Below are positions 24,321 through 38,885 of a DNA stretch of 39,119 nucleotides, in pieces. How positions within the stretch are numbered: the first letter of the stretch is position 1; each line of letters begins with the position of its first letter. A program made the translations under genes and the position numbers. The notes under the pieces were generated by a model. The model was not told the DNA's origin, searched no databases, and saw only the letters and a program-made list of their open reading frames with translations. This DNA is from a virus: the IMG/VR virus record IMGVR_UViG_3300047478_000354, positions 1-39,119 of that record. One strand, written 5' to 3'.

Positions 24321-25802
24321 GTGGGATTTTACAAGCAGACAACCAGAGCAATTCCAGAAAAACCAAAATATTATGCGAAGAAGACTAGTGTCGCTAAAGA
24401 ACGCATAGAGAAAAACGAAGAGCTTGAGCAAAGTTTTCTTCAAGACTGGGAAAGTTTAAGGGTAAGACACTCAGGGCAACAGGAACTTTTGGATGCCTTC
24501 TTCATAGATGGCAAAAAATACGTATTCGCAAGATTTGGCCGTAAGGGAGCCAAAACCGCCACAAACATAGACATTGCCTGGCGGTACAGTTACGAGAATC
24601 CCCGATCAACTACCTACATTTGCCTCCCGACAATCGTTCAAGCCATCGAGATCTACTGGGACGAAAAACGCCTTCAATGGTGCGACATTCAAGATCCTTG
24701 GATGTGCGAAAAATACCTAGAGAACGTAGATAATAATAAGCACATCATTACCTTCAAAAACGGTAGCACCATCAAGCTAATCGGGACATGGAGCGAATCG
24801 CGTGGCCGTGGTACGCAGCCGAACCTACTTATTGCGGACGAATTAAAAGACTGCTCTGGGGAATATTTAGATGCGATGGAGCCTAACCTTGCAGCCAAGC
24901 CTGACGCTCGCTGCATAATGACAGGAACTCCACCTAAAAAAAGAAGTCACTTCCACGAATGGGAAGATCGAATTAAGGCAAACCCCGAAGGGTTTCACCG
25001 CCATTATTCCAGCTACATCAACACGGCATTACCGCATTTGGCTGGCTGGCTGGACAGAAAGAAAGAAGAGCTTATTGCAGCAGGTAAGGAAGATGTCTGG
25101 CTACGAGAATACATGGCCGAAGACTCCTTCCGCTCAGACGAGAGAGTCCTACCTGATATTAAATTCCAAGACTTGGATGCCTTATTGCACTTGGTTAGGA
25201 CTTCCGATGCCTCGGCATTTCATCCTATCGTCGGAGTGATTGTAACTGAGGAAAAAATCTGCATAACCTACTCGGCCTTATTGTATAGTAAGTACACAGG
25301 AACAAAAATCTTTACCTTTGAATCGAATTTAGTTTCTAGAATATGGGATCTTGGGTATCATGCGCTAAACGCGCAAATACAATCTAAAATTGAATTCTAC
25401 GCAAAGATCTTCTCTAAGTCATGGAGGAAGGTTGTTTTCGATGAAACCAACTCTCTTTCTCATGTACTTCCAGGATTTTTCGATGCAAGAAAGGATTTAA
25501 ATTGGAAAGTGCGTGGCATACCATTACTCCGCGAGATGATAATCTCGGATACCATCCAATTTGCTTCCCCTTCATCAGAAATAGGTGTTGAGGCTCAAAA
25601 TCTTTTAAAAGAGGATGATATTCATGATTTTCCGAACGTTTGCTGTATGGCTATGCTGGCCAATGAGTTTTATCAACCACAGACGCTATCTAGGGTTGAA
25701 AAGGAAATATGGGATAAATACAAGCCGTTACGAGATGCTGGAATTCCGACCCCAGTACGAAGAAAAAAAGCTAAGACGTTATTCCAAAAGAACTGGAATT
25801 AG
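24321..25802 (+). CDS. terL: Terminase large subunit
   Basis: A 493-residue packaging motor. The ATPase domain has a variant Walker A at 73-81 (GRKGAKTAT rather than GxxxxGKS/T), a Walker B at 169-174 ('LLIADE', E174 catalytic) and a 'TGTP' coupling motif at 201-204. In the C-terminal nuclease half, acidic positions are visible in 'VVFDETNS' and 'DIHDFPN'. The usual first Asp ('GxDxG') is replaced by 'VGVIVTEE'. The GTG start has only AAGG upstream. It lies on the opposite strand to the portal, and no small terminase gene is recognised. Confidence 0.8.
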   Translation: MGFYKQTTRAIPEKPKYYAKKTSVAKERIEKNEELEQSFLQDWESLRVRHSGQQELLDAFFIDGKKYVFARFGRKGAKTATNIDIAWRYSYENPRSTTYICLPTIVQAIEIYWDEKRLQWCDIQDPWMCEKYLENVDNNKHIITFKNGSTIKLIGTWSESRGRGTQPNLLIADELKDCSGEYLDAMEPNLAAKPDARCIMTGTPPKKRSHFHEWEDRIKANPEGFHRHYSSYINTALPHLAGWLDRKKEELIAAGKEDVWLREYMAEDSFRSDERVLPDIKFQDLDALLHLVRTSDASAFHPIVGVIVTEEKICITYSALLYSKYTGTKIFTFESNLVSRIWDLGYHALNAQIQSKIEFYAKIFSKSWRKVVFDETNSLSHVLPGFFDARKDLNWKVRGIPLLREMIISDTIQFASPSSEIGVEAQNLLKEDDIHDFPNVCCMAMLANEFYQPQTLSRVEKEIWDKYKPLRDAGIPTPVRRKKAKTLFQKNWN

Positions 25803-26042: not shown

Positions 26043-26369
26043 ATGAAGAACAGAAGATCTCGTCGTGAGTATCCTTTAGAGATACCAAATATCATTTTTG
26101 ACTTAAAATTAAATCCATACGATTTTTTTGTTTATGTTAATCTTTGCAAGTTGGCAGGCGAAGATTACGAATATTGCCTATCACTGACCAAGCTATCAGT
26201 TTTATTCGGAATTGGTAAAACAAGGCTTAGAGAAGCAGTTAAGGCTTTAGAGAAAGGATCTAACGAATTAAATTTAAGATTAATACAAATAATCAGAAAT
26301 AAAACAGATGATGGTGGGAATGCTATGATGGCATTTAAAATCCTTGATTTGCCAGAAGGAGGATTCTAA
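26043..26369 (+). CDS. Short winged-helix protein, paralogue of the next gene
   Basis: A 108-residue protein consisting of little more than a winged helix-turn-helix. It has 'EIPNIIFDLKLNPYDFFVY', then 'LSLTKLSVLFGIGKTRLREA' (the HTH) and 'LEKGSNELNLRLIQII' (wing). It aligns end to end with the N-terminal domain of the following gene, including IPN, 'G.G.T.LRE', 'LE.G.N.LNL.LI.I' and 'DG'. It may compete for the same DNA sites and regulate replication or its own operon. It lacks the linker and C-terminal domain of its paralogue. Confidence 0.65.
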   Translation: MKNRRSRREYPLEIPNIIFDLKLNPYDFFVYVNLCKLAGEDYEYCLSLTKLSVLFGIGKTRLREAVKALEKGSNELNLRLIQIIRNKTDDGGNAMMAFKILDLPEGGF

Positions 26370-26370
26370 A

Positions 26371-27324
26371 ATGTCATCCGATCAAATAGCAAATCAAAAT
26401 GTTTGTATTCAGGAAGAAGAGTTACCCGATCATCATTTCCGCACAGAGATACCAAACTGTGTTATCAAATCAAATCTTGGATATGCCGCTCTTGGAGTAT
26501 ACACCCATTTGAAATGTATTGCTGGCGATAGCTCATCATGCTGGAAGTCAATGTCAACATTATCCGAAGAGCTTGGAATGGGTTTGACTAAGCTAAGAGA
26601 AATTTTAAAAGATTTAGAAAATGGCACTAATTCATTAAATCTAAAGTTAATAAAAATATTTCCAACTAAAAAACAAGATGGGTCTCCAGGAACAAATATA
26701 ATTAAAATTATTAATGTTTGGGGATTTAATGGTATATTTAATAAAGATAAAAATATAAATAAAGATGATTCGCAATCCGAACCAGTACCTTCGCTAATAG
26801 AGGGTACGACCCTCGCTATTAGAGGGTACGACCCTCGCCATTCGAGTACAAAGAAGAACCCTATTAATAATAACCCTATTAATAAGAACCCAACCACCAC
26901 CACCAAACCTCCTACCTCCAAAGTTGAGCCATCGAATCCATTGCTCGATGGTGGTGGTGGTGGTGGTTTTGAAAATTCTTTTGGAGATTTGTTTTATAAA
27001 AACACGGCTGGCGAATCGTGCAAGATTTCGCAATCGGATATTTACAAGCATTTCATCAAAACTCCGTTCGAAACCGCCATCATCCATGAGGCCATCGAGC
27101 AAGCTCGAAAGTCTACCGACCTGATCGGAAGCATAACCAAATACCTTGAGGCAATTTGTCTTCGACTGTCCAATCAAAAAAATGTCAAAGCTGAGAAGAA
27201 ATCGGAGCCTGCAAAGAAGCCTGAATGTCACATACCGAACACGAGTCATGTTCCAAAAATGACTCTAGGCGAATGGGCTTTAAAAAATGATTTAACTTTA
27301 GCAAAGGACTTAGGACTCGTATGA
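26371..27324 (+). CDS. Replication initiator, lambda O-like winged-helix protein
   Basis: I start at the ATG at 26371 (AAGGAGG upstream); a TTG at 26344 is less likely. The 317-residue protein has an N-terminal winged helix (about 20-120), a low-complexity linker (about 135-195, with NPINN repeats, TTTT and GGGGGG) and a C-terminal helical domain. Two consecutive 22-bp DNA repeats and two 15-bp AT-rich repeats lie in the linker. This matches lambda O, whose gene contains the origin. The next gene is a DnaC-like loader, strengthening the reading. It would bind the repeats and recruit the loader and host helicase. Confidence 0.65.
   Translation: MSSDQIANQNVCIQEEELPDHHFRTEIPNCVIKSNLGYAALGVYTHLKCIAGDSSSCWKSMSTLSEELGMGLTKLREILKDLENGTNSLNLKLIKIFPTKKQDGSPGTNIIKIINVWGFNGIFNKDKNINKDDSQSEPVPSLIEGTTLAIRGYDPRHSSTKKNPINNNPINKNPTTTTKPPTSKVEPSNPLLDGGGGGGFENSFGDLFYKNTAGESCKISQSDIYKHFIKTPFETAIIHEAIEQARKSTDLIGSITKYLEAICLRLSNQKNVKAEKKSEPAKKPECHIPNTSHVPKMTLGEWALKNDLTLAKDLGLV
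26791..26891. repeat. Origin-like iterons inside the initiator gene
   Basis: Two adjacent 22-bp direct repeats (26791-26812, 26813-26834) differ at one base, and a decayed third begins at 26835. Each repeat contains most of the dyad GAGGGT-ACG-ACCCTC, completed by the next base or two. Two 15-bp AT-rich repeats follow (26857-26871, 26872-26886), then AACCC. Since 22 is not a multiple of 3, the first two copies encode different peptides, so conservation of the repeat acts on DNA. Confidence 0.65.
26894..26970. repeat. Inverted CCA/TGG tract beside the iterons
   Basis: CCACCACCACCA (26894-26905) can pair with TGGTGGTGGTGG (from 26949), and between them CCATCGA (26929-26935) pairs with TCGATGG (26945-26951) around a nine-base loop. 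The tract encodes TTTT and GGGGGG in the linker. It may be simple-sequence expansion, or an origin structure next to the repeats. Confidence 0.5.
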
Positions 27325-27860
27325 TTGTAAATAGCAAATTTCCTCCAAGAAGTGAACTTAACTCTGCTCATTTGAGCAAGTTAAGGATAAAAAATGAAGA
27401 AATGATTAGGCTTTCAAAATGGAATTCAAACCCCAAAGATTTTCTTTTATTCCTAGGAAGCCCTGGATGCGGAAAAACTTACTTTTGCGCTGCGCTAATC
27501 AACTATCGCATAGAGAAAAACCTGCCCTACGTCTTTCTTTTCGAGAGAGATTTTTTGGCAGGATTGCGGAATGTTATCGCATCGGGTAAAGACTACAACT
27601 ACGATCTTGAAGTGCTTGGCGAAGTGCCGTTTTTAATCTTGGATGACATGGGATCGTCCCAGATGACCGATTGGCAAAAAGAGGCTCTTTTCGTTCTGGT
27701 TGATAATCGAATTATGTCGCGTTTACCTACGGTAATAACATCAAATTATTACTTGAAAGATATTCGGAGCAAGTTCGAGCCACGCTTCCATTCTCGATTG
27801 GCTGGGGCTAGAAATACGATCATTGAGCTGAACGATGATGATTTAAGGCAGGTGTTTTGA
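27321..27860 (+). CDS. DnaC-like AAA+ helicase loader
   Basis: A 179-residue ATPase with Walker A GSPGCGKT (46-53), Walker B 'LILDDMG' (D108, D109), sensor-1-like 'TSN' (140-142) and arginines in 'RFHSRL' (155, 159) that suit an arginine finger. Size and motifs match the ATPase core of DnaC/DnaI-type loaders, without a long helicase-binding N-terminus. The start overlaps the initiator's stop (ATGA). It should load the host replicative helicase at the origin. Confidence 0.75.
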   Translation: MIVNSKFPPRSELNSAHLSKLRIKNEEMIRLSKWNSNPKDFLLFLGSPGCGKTYFCAALINYRIEKNLPYVFLFERDFLAGLRNVIASGKDYNYDLEVLGEVPFLILDDMGSSQMTDWQKEALFVLVDNRIMSRLPTVITSNYYLKDIRSKFEPRFHSRLAGARNTIIELNDDDLRQVF

Positions 27861-28219
27861 TGTCCGATCGAATCAAAGTAACTTACATGAATTTACCCGA
27901 AAATCCCGATAAAGTTCTTGCGACCTTTGGTATGTGCATCATTAGCATGGATTTCTACCTACCTAAAGTGAAGCTGGTTAAACGAAAAGATGGGGGGCTC
28001 TACCTAGCCCCTCCTTCTGAAAAATATGTCAATCAGAGGTCTGGAAAAGAGGAATTCAGTAATTTCTGGTGGTTTGGCCCTAAAACGGCCGATTTTTTCC
28101 AGATTGAGGGGTTTAAGGCCATAAGAACTTATTGCAAAGGAAAAGGGTTGCCCGATCCGACCAATGGTCAATCCCCTGCCTTAAAAAAACAGGACTCCGC
28201 TTCTGTTTTTGATTCGTAA
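27860..28219 (+). CDS. SpoVG-like protein
   Basis: I take the ATG at 27860, overlapping the previous stop (TGATG). In the 119-residue protein, 'ISMDFYLPKVKLVKRKDGGLYLAPPSEKYV' is reduced here to its key parts: 'DFYLPKVKLV' and 'GGLYLAPPSEKY'. These resemble the SpoVG core of a basic strand followed by 'G.f.a.Ps.k', and 'FWWFGP' follows. SpoVG-family proteins bind nucleic acids. Placement after the loader suggests a replication or regulatory role. The family call is from pattern and moderate. Confidence 0.5.
   Translation: MSDRIKVTYMNLPENPDKVLATFGMCIISMDFYLPKVKLVKRKDGGLYLAPPSEKYVNQRSGKEEFSNFWWFGPKTADFFQIEGFKAIRTYCKGKGLPDPTNGQSPALKKQDSASVFDS
28185..28210 (+). terminator. Weak intrinsic terminator
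   Basis: AAAAACAG (28185-28192) pairs with CTGTTTTT (28203-28210) around a ten-base loop, the T-run lying within and after the stem. It sits at the 3' end of the SpoVG-like gene and just before a new promoter, so it may separate two transcription units. Confidence 0.4.
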
Positions 28220-29027: not shown

Positions 29028-30120
29028 ATTCAAAAATTGGCTTGAAAGAAATTTGGCTCTTATTTAATGTGTCGTCCATGACACTAGACGACGAAGAAAG
29101 AGCAAGGCTCACAATACAGCACAAACAAGAACGTGATGGACGAATACGGGATCGAATTAAAGCGGTCTTGCTTCACGATAAGGGATGGTCGCTTCGGCAA
29201 ATTGCAGAAGTTTTATTAATCTCTGACGAGGCTGTTCGCAATCACATTCAAGATTACGACTCTGCTAAAAAATTACGCCCAGAAAGTGGCGGTTCTCAAT
29301 CAAAGTTATCAAATCTGCAATCGCAACAACTCGAAGCCCATCTACTGCAGTACACCTACTTATACATCAAAAATATTGTCACTTACGTTGAAATAACTTT
29401 TGGCATTAAGTACACAGTTCATGGCTTAAGAGGTTGGCTTAAAAGACACTTGTTTTCTTATAAAAAACCTGCAGTTGTTCCTGGAAAAGCTGATGAACAG
29501 CAACAAAAAAAATGGATAGCTGAGTACGAAGAACTCCGAGCAAAACTTCCTCCAAATGAAACAATTTGCTTTATCGATGGTGTGCATCCTACTCACAATG
29601 TTCAACCAGCATATGGTTGGATTAAAAAGGGAATTAGGAAAGAAATTCCTGCCAACAGTGGTCGTTCCAGGTTAAATTTATCAGGAGCAGTGGATTTGAT
29701 TTCTTACAAGGTAATTATCCAGGCAGATCAGACTTTAAATGCCAATTCAACTATTGCTTTTTTTCAAAAAATTGAAAAAGCCTACCCAGACAAGAATAAA
29801 ATTCACGTATTTTGCGATAACGCTAGATATTACAAAAATAAAGACGTTCATAATTACCTCGAGACTTCAAAAGTCAAACTCCACTTTTTGCCTCCTTATA
29901 GCCCTAATTTGAATCCTATCGAGCGACTTTGGAAGTGGATGAAGGAAAGCATTATCTACAATGCGTATTACCCTGGGTTTGATGAGTTTAAATCGGCTGT
30001 TTTTGGTTTTTTTGCTCTCATATCATCTCTGGGAGCTGAATCAGAACTAGGAAAAAGCTTCAGAAGTCGCGTCAGGGATAAATTCAGGCCAATTGGAGCT
30101 CCAGCTGCCAACTTTTGAAT
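29028..30120 (+). mobile_element. IS630-family insertion sequence
   Basis: A 1,093-bp element with 14-bp terminal inverted repeats ATTCAAAA(A/G)TTGGC at 29028-29041 and 30107-30120 (13 of 14 match), enclosing an intact transposase. IS630 elements normally duplicate a TA; the flanks here (GTG and TTA) show no clear TA pair, so the exact ends could be off by a few bases or one flank has changed. Confidence 0.8.
29078..30118 (+). CDS. IS630 transposase, apparently intact
   Basis: I start at the ATG at 29078; an in-frame TTG at 29042 adds 12 residues. The 346-residue protein has an N-terminal helix-turn-helix ('SLRQIAEVLLISDEAVRNHI', about 38-57), a second HTH-like region, and the DDE catalytic triad at D167 ('FIDGVH'), D247 ('FCDNARYY') and E282 ('NPIERLWKW'). 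Length is normal for the family. The lack of frameshift suggests recent insertion or continuing activity. Confidence 0.9.
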   Translation: MTLDDEERARLTIQHKQERDGRIRDRIKAVLLHDKGWSLRQIAEVLLISDEAVRNHIQDYDSAKKLRPESGGSQSKLSNLQSQQLEAHLLQYTYLYIKNIVTYVEITFGIKYTVHGLRGWLKRHLFSYKKPAVVPGKADEQQQKKWIAEYEELRAKLPPNETICFIDGVHPTHNVQPAYGWIKKGIRKEIPANSGRSRLNLSGAVDLISYKVIIQADQTLNANSTIAFFQKIEKAYPDKNKIHVFCDNARYYKNKDVHNYLETSKVKLHFLPPYSPNLNPIERLWKWMKESIIYNAYYPGFDEFKSAVFGFFALISSLGAESELGKSFRSRVRDKFRPIGAPAANF

Positions 30121-37827: not shown

Positions 37828-38097
37828 TCAAACTCCTTTGAATTTTTTGAACATGAGGTCGATAGCTTGGCATATTAGCTGAGATTTATCAATCTTTTCT
37901 GACATTATCAATTTTGAAGTGTATATCTCATTTATCATCGATTCGCATTCCTCAGATATATAGAAGGTCATTTTTTTCTTCTTACTCTTTTTATATACGA
38001 TCAACTTTGCTGGGTTAGGGTATCTTTGACCATCTAGCTGCTTAGATTCGGATAATCCCCTCTTTATCTTAGTCTCTAAATCTGATAGGCTCTTCAT
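37828..38097 (-). CDS. Ribbon-helix-helix partition partner of ParA
   Basis: An 89-residue protein with a basic, flexible N-terminal half ('KSKKKK' near 37-42) and a C-terminal ribbon-helix-helix ('KMTFYISEECESMINEIYTS', then 'IDKSQLICQAIDLMFKKF'). This is the layout of ParG-type centromere-binding proteins: a mobile basic tail that stimulates ParA and a dimeric DNA-binding fold. It overlaps parA's stop by ATGA. The CTGGTA repeats before parA are its probable binding site. Confidence 0.65.
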   Translation of the reverse strand: MKSLSDLETKIKRGLSESKQLDGQRYPNPAKLIVYKKSKKKKMTFYISEECESMINEIYTSKLIMSEKIDKSQLICQAIDLMFKKFKGV

Positions 38098-38885
38098 TTA
38101 AACCTCTCTGATTTTAAACGATCGATTATCTCTGTTGCTAATGTAAAATATCCAATCGCGCCTGTGCAGGTTACGTCATATTCAAATATTGGCTTATGAT
38201 GGGCTTGCGCTTCGTTTAGCTTAATGTTTACTGGGATAGCAACATCAAAGATCAAATCCCCTAATGCACTTTGCACCTTCTCCTTTATCATTCTAGAAAG
38301 AGTAGTCCTCGTGTCATGGAAGGTGAAAAGAACTCCCAATATTTTAGTCTCATGGTTAATGACCGAAGAAATCTCCCTATTAACAAAGTTCAATGTCTCT
38401 ATAAAATTTGACACTCCCTCTAATGCAAAATATCCTAGCTGTAATGGCATCACTATAAAATCAGAAGCCACAAAAGCATTTATTGAAAGCGTTCCAAACG
38501 TAGGAGGGCAATCTATTAAAATAAAATCATATGACAAAGGGAATTCTTGGATCTTTTTTCTGAGCTTAAACTCTTTTGCTCCCGACATAGACATCTTCAT
38601 TTCTGCTAATGCTAAAGAATTTCCTGCTGGAATTATGTCAAAGCTATCACGTTTTTGAATTACTTGATGGATTGTGGTTTTCTCGGATGTTAGTAATTCA
38701 CACATTGAAGGTGTTTTATTATCCAAAGAATTCTCTGCCCCTACACCTATGCTACAAGACCCTTGAGGATCTATGTCGACAAGTAAAATCTTAAAGCCCA
38801 TCCTAGATAGTGCTGAGGCCATGTTTATTGCCGTTGTGGTCTTACCCACACCGCCTTTTTGATTTGCAAATGCTATAGTTTTCAT
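38094..38885 (-). CDS. parA: ParA/Soj partition ATPase
   Basis: A 263-residue ATPase with deviant Walker A KGGVGKTT (10-17, signature lysine K10), 'LLVDIDPQG' (A' motif, D38 and D40) and Walker B 'FILIDCPP'. It lacks an N-terminal HTH, so it is a small ParA of the type paired with ParG-like partners. It moves plasmid copies over the nucleoid. It leads a long minus-strand operon, with repeats directly upstream that may be both operator and centromere. Confidence 0.9.
   Translation of the reverse strand: MKTIAFANQKGGVGKTTTAINMASALSRMGFKILLVDIDPQGSCSIGVGAENSLDNKTPSMCELLTSEKTTIHQVIQKRDSFDIIPAGNSLALAEMKMSMSGAKEFKLRKKIQEFPLSYDFILIDCPPTFGTLSINAFVASDFIVMPLQLGYFALEGVSNFIETLNFVNREISSVINHETKILGVLFTFHDTRTTLSRMIKEKVQSALGDLIFDVAIPVNIKLNEAQAHHKPIFEYDVTCTGAIGYFTLATEIIDRLKSERFK

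Follow-up and report, generated by a model that had tools for sequence, protein, structure and literature searches.

A probable replication origin within the initiator gene of a putative phage-plasmid

Introduction

Origins that lie inside the gene of their own initiator have long been known. In phage lambda, whose origin is in gene O, two iterons together with the AT-rich region are enough for unwinding (PMC7466680). The oriL of phage SPP1 is found within gene 38 (PMC6316719). In the plasmid pSK41, four Rep boxes are located within rep, in the part that encodes the linker of the protein, and this linker can be deleted in frame given a functional ori (PMC5703833).

Here we describe a site of this kind in a viral contig of 39,119 bases, the whole of which is referred to below as the window. 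We propose, with a probability of roughly 0.8, that a theta-type origin of this phage lies within its own initiator gene, in the part that codes for the linker. A first-pass annotation had suggested a probable origin inside the initiator gene, and this suggestion gains support from the rank of the repeats, their position in the linker, codon shuffles, an adjoining AT-rich tract, the gene context, equivalent sites in other initiators and the replacement of the cassette in related contigs. The type of origin is familiar; what appears to be new, within the collections searched, is the iteron, together with the initiator and the phage group.

Results

Gene context and the initiator protein

The genes relevant to the analysis are as follows.

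24321-25802, terminase gene
26043-26369, + strand, P0003, small winged-helix gene, paralogue of the winged-helix domain of P0001
26371-27324, + strand, P0001, initiator gene (winged-helix N-domain, linker, helical C-domain), with its ATG at 26371 after GGAGG
27321-27860, + strand, P0002, DnaC-like helicase loader
27857-28219, conserved small gene after the loader
29042-30118, IS630-type transposase in the early region
38094-38885, ParA gene, conserved in three related phage contigs (the window, L033 and L034)

Searches of P0001 against PHROGs returned a DnaD-like loader (4.5e-10) and a replication initiation protein (1.4e-07), with no match to the O-like initiator PHROGs. Its HTH_36 match (E 0.00076, 19.7 bits) fell below the gathering cut-off of 25, and the RepA_N Pfam family was not matched at E 0.1. 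As the full-length model obtained from the single sequence was poor (pLDDT 38), only the model of the N-domain was used, which was built from a 12-sequence alignment and gave a winged helix with a pLDDT of 75. Foldseek placed 4pql, 4pt7 ('Structure of initiator') and 5kbj ('Structure of Rep-DNA complex') in the top ten for this model, with weak E values of about 0.01, and VIA-align gave Z scores of 10.1 for 4pql and 10.0 for 4pt7, with which other winged helices tie. All three structures are presumably staphylococcal RepA N-domains. Judging from the N-domain model, the sequence and the low-confidence full-length model, the linker would extend from about residue 139 to residue 212 in the 326-residue reading.

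The loader gene comes next after the initiator gene, and its product P0002 matched the PHROG DnaC-like loader (4.4e-24) and, above the cut-off, IstB_IS21 of Pfam (42 bits). These matches and the N-domain model agree with the first-pass description of repeats in the linker of a winged-helix protein gene followed by a DnaC-like loader. Searches of viral contigs, phages and plasmids yielded no close homologue of P0001 other than one weak partial phage match (E 4e-3), and no initiator homologue bearing the same repeats. Single-protein scans found no P0002 homologue in viral or genome contigs, and no homologue of the terminase was found in genome contigs.

The small upstream protein P0003 matched P0001 with an E value of 4.6e-14 and 37% identity over the matched stretch, and HTH_36 with an E value of 0.00024, under the gathering score. 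This free-standing winged-helix paralogue may be a regulator of the origin or of the operon, or a competitor at the origin. A small initiator-like gene also precedes the O-like gene of Lactobacillus phage Ld25A (L042:1126-1467).

Host and lifestyle

The record combines terminase, portal and head protein genes with a ParA gene (PHROG 5.6e-56), and has no terminal repeat. The presence of virion genes alongside a plasmid partition gene suggests that the phage is probably a phage-plasmid. The nearest relatives of its ParA are plasmid ParAs of Parachlamydiales, namely of Criblamydia (41%) and Protochlamydia (40%), and the transposase is 68% identical to a copy on a Protochlamydia naegleriophila plasmid. 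These two genes allow one to guess, but no more than that, at a phage-plasmid of environmental Chlamydiota, and the three related contigs may together form a group of such phage-plasmids.

An out-of-frame array of 22-bp iterons

The elements of the proposed origin, in order of position, are listed below.

26691-26770, AT-rich tract, candidate unwinding element, the record's most AT-rich 80 nt (86%)
26787-26805, iteron 1, ACCTTC-GCTAATA-GAGGGT, one mismatch against the dyad
26800-26814 and 26822-26836, alternative dyads GAGGGT-ACG-ACCCTC, as parsed in the first-pass annotation
26809-26827, iteron 2, ACCCTC-GCTATTA-GAGGGT, dyad perfect
26831-26849, iteron 3, decayed, ACCCTC-GCCATTC-GAGtac
26851-26891, pair of 15-bp AT-rich repeats with part of a third copy (AACCCTATTAATAA type), in frame
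26892-26968, inverted CCA/TGG repeat with its arms at 26892-26905 and 26955-26968, 14/14 complementary

The repeat array spans 26787-26846, about 420 bp inside the P0001 gene, in the part that codes for the interdomain linker, and reads ACCTTC-GCTAATA-GAGGGT-acg-ACCCTC-GCTATTA-GAGGGT-acg-ACCCTC-GCCATTC-GAGtac. Two 22-bp repeats and a decayed third copy had been annotated, and this is what was found: ACCTTCGCTAATAGAGGGTACG (26787-26808) and ACCCTCGCTATTAGAGGGTACG (26809-26830) are 91% identical, and the third copy, ACCCTCGCCATTCGAG(TACAAA) from 26831, is missing its right half. When tandem repeats with periods of 8-60 were scored ungapped, at +1 per match and -1.5 per mismatch, the array reached 28.0 and was the top-ranked tandem-type repeat of the entire 39-kb record. 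None of 500 synonymous-codon shuffles (300 + 200) in which the protein was kept attained this score (maximum 21.5), and codon shuffles of the initiator gene (n=300) gave a maximum of 13.5. With 0-1 mismatch allowed, GAGGGTNNNACCCTC occurred only at the two array places in the 39-kb record. An exact 15-mer scan of viral contigs returned 26 isolated, unrelated matches, with neither an array nor an initiator homologue there, and these look like chance given the size of the collection.

The half-sites annotated at first pass are present and are identical in both parses of the dyad; the unit itself is better read as ACCCTC-N7-GAGGGT, three times with the third decayed and with ACG spacers, than as GAGGGT-ACG-ACCCTC. 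The homologous part of the array begins exactly at ACC and finishes at GAG, limits which the former unit matches, whereas with the latter a half-site is left over at either end.

The copies start at codon offsets 2, 0 and 1, and so fall in three reading frames and each encode a different peptide, in keeping with the earlier statement that the 22-bp period breaks the frame and that the first two copies differ in their peptides. The stronger claim, of a need to keep the copies as DNA, is plausible, although in this single sequence they could also stem from a recent duplication, out of frame, in a linker that tolerates it. A neutral, functionless tandem duplication in a disordered linker would fit with first copies that differ at only two positions, with just two copies being intact, with the low complexity of the linker and with no relative having been found with the same repeats. 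The perfect or near-perfect dyad in each unit speaks against it, as do the surveys described below, and we regard neutral duplication as unlikely.

A hairpin in the initiator mRNA, acting at the level of RNA, might also be invoked, given that the + strand, folded as DNA, is more stable than its shuffles (z -3.5). However, the dyads account for this folding, no terminator-type T run follows the site and no Rfam match was obtained, which makes an RNA element exceedingly improbable.

Flanking elements

The AT-rich tract, which the first-pass annotation lacks, finishes 16 nt before the array. It codes for N/K/I-rich protein and may be mere composition. The two 15-bp AT-rich repeats and the inverted CCA/TGG tract that had been annotated are both present. 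The former (26851-26865 and 26866-26880, 87% identity) make up the second-ranked tandem-type repeat of the record; since they are in frame, they may be kept as protein. The CCA/TGG inverted repeat gave a stable single-strand fold on either strand, with z about -5. The GC-skew profile proposed at first pass as a check proved uninformative: cumulative skew turns near 25 kb yet tracks gene direction, and third-position skew is mixed with no switch at the array, for which reasons skew was discarded as evidence.

Exchange of the replication cassette in related contigs

A terminase search identified two related contigs, L033 (78%) and L034 (56%), both of which carry ParA near the same end (73% and 51%, respectively) and keep a homologue of the small gene at 27857-28219 after the replication cassette (63% for L033). 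The cassette between the terminase and this small gene differs, with another initiator in L033 and an O-like initiator in L034, and a P0002-like loader is absent from both. The linker-coding part of the L034 initiator gene holds three out-of-frame 23-bp repeats, whose dyad is TTTGyGGA-aaa-TCCACAAA; they occupy the same place as the array of the window, and these are the top repeat of the L034 contig. The L033 initiator has a weak mid-gene 14-bp repeat, which was non-significant (reached by 38/200 shuffles). The window dyad GAGGGTNNNACCCTC was absent, at up to two mismatches, from the whole of both contigs. Since the relatives retain terminase and ParA but have other initiators and lack the dyad of the window, the putative origin site travels with the initiator, and not with terminase or ParA.

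This distribution bears on the idea that the array is a phage packaging (pac) site or a partition centromere for the ParA system. The large terminase gene is nearby and the phage has ParA, as either function would have it; that both genes are conserved in L033 and L034 where the dyad is missing, and that the site follows the initiator cassette, counts against a packaging or partition site, which we consider very improbable.

Similar repeats, of the 23-bp GCGGAAAA type, were also observed in two further initiators, the O-like one of E. coli phage SaltyDalty and that of Pseudomonas phage CF63a. A linker iteron of this type is common to the initiators of three different phages (L034:10254-10321, L044:1750-1871 and L045:1730-1871), and may be an iteron code that this family of initiators conserves. 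In the L034 initiator gene, a second repeat, AGAGAACAGAGAA, comes after the iterons (L034:10325-10382).

Repeats in the initiator genes of other phages

In a set of 19 phage initiators, with lambda O as the positive control, the strongest internal repeat of all 19 was located at 38-57% of gene length, whereas the best repeats of 17 control genes (loader, helicase, lambda P and terminase genes) were scattered and mostly unremarkable. The strongest repeat of EJ-1 dnaD coincides with the putative rep_origin annotated in its record. Because these 19 initiators had been chosen through loader or initiator matches, a wider set was added, made up of 80 viral loci in which a relative of the P0002 loader is encoded, and 68 directly upstream genes from it were usable. 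Thirty of these (30/68) beat all 60 synonymous shuffles, 28 of the 30 with the repeat mid-gene, although this is a rough rate only, as some upstream genes are non-initiators and short in-frame periods (12, 15 and 18) may in part reflect low-complexity protein. By comparison, only 1/79 loaders and 2/74 downstream genes were repeat-positive (Fisher p 2e-11 and 1e-9 against 30/68). With the upstream genes collapsed at 50% identity, 27/56 clusters were repeat-positive. The density of mid-gene dyads was 6.6/kb for the genes upstream of loaders, compared with 2.5-2.6/kb for the loaders themselves and the genes downstream. It is this concentration of repeats and dyads in initiators, and not in control genes, that weighs further against neutral duplication.

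The clearest cases in the survey (L053, L094 and L103) were HTH_36 initiators whose 22-23-bp arrays are out of frame. The closest loader (39%) was that of L050, where the initiator linker region (L050:180-275) carries the dyads GGGACA-aaaa-TGTCCC and GGACATTAATGTCC, with an AT tract, TATATATATAATAATA, after them; this is another probable origin.

The same survey is relevant to the possibility that the dyads form an operator, bound by P0001 or its paralogue P0003 to regulate their own operon, with replication starting elsewhere. Dyads are typical of dimeric winged-helix regulators, and a free winged-helix paralogue is encoded directly upstream. Nevertheless, the site is 420 bp into the gene, away from the promoter, P0001 matches replication initiators, and unrelated initiators have sites in the same linker, including the experimentally shown origins of lambda, SPP1 and pSK41. 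An operator thus seems improbable.

Discussion

The anatomy of the sequence, its non-randomness, its family context and the exchange of cassettes are matters of direct observation. Iteron binding, melting and helicase loading by P0001 and P0002 may be envisaged by analogy with lambda, SPP1 and pSK41. The winged-helix N-domain of P0001 would bind the ACCCTC-N7-GAGGGT iterons, all of them on the same side of the helix, their 22-bp spacing being close to two helical turns. The nucleoprotein complex would then melt the adjoining AT-rich DNA, at 26691-26770 and/or at the 15-bp repeats (26851-26891), and the C-domain, together with the DnaC-like loader from the next gene, would bring the host DnaB helicase. 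The linker peptide would tolerate whatever the iterons encode; the origin would therefore stay physically joined to its initiator, and both would move as a cassette.

For an uncultured phage group, these findings provide a precise candidate origin, and for an initiator that lacks close relatives they provide a distinct iteron. To judge from the survey, many phage origins could be found by sequence alone, through mid-gene repeats in the gene before a helicase loader. The findings also suggest why initiator and origin remain matched when replication modules are exchanged. We put forward tentatively, with slightly more doubt than belief, the broader proposal that out-of-frame linker iterons are a general mark of loader-linked winged-helix initiators, with cassettes swapped wholesale, each with its own iteron code, and that the site described here would be such an origin for tailed phage-plasmids of environmental Chlamydiota.

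Comparison with known systems

The pSK41-type RepA_N plasmids resemble the window in having a winged-helix N-domain, a linker encoded by origin DNA and a helical C-domain (PMC5703833). The predicted N-domain of P0001 may resemble 4pql, 4pt7 and 5kbj in particular, although other winged helices tie in Z. The window differs from these plasmids in that it has no RepA_N sequence match, is a phage genome, has a loader gene following the initiator and carries another repeat. SPP1 gp38/oriL and the DnaD-like initiators of gram-positive phages such as EJ-1 (dnaD) share with it origin repeats inside the initiator gene and a loader gene next to it, and SPP1 has an AT-rich unwinding region as well (PMC6316719). 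Their repeats are different, and the window is a presumed phage-plasmid, possibly of Chlamydiota.

The lambda origin in gene O likewise has mid-gene iterons, with an AT-rich stretch and an inverted repeat next to them and the loader gene following, and its iteron ATCCCTCAAAACGAGGGA contains a dyad of the CCCTC...GAGGG type. As no CCCTC/GAGGG dyads were found in the surveyed initiators, this likeness is not taken as kinship. In contrast to lambda, the window has an even 22-bp spacing, a 7-bp dyad gap and two to three copies instead of four; the families that P0001 matches are DnaD-like and HTH_36-type, with no O-like PHROG among them, and the loader, unlike lambda P, is DnaC/IstB-like. The parallel drawn at first pass, to the lambda origin with different repeats and a different initiator, is nonetheless apt, in that the CCCTC/GAGGG half-site and the order of iterons, AT-rich stretch and inverted repeat are shared.
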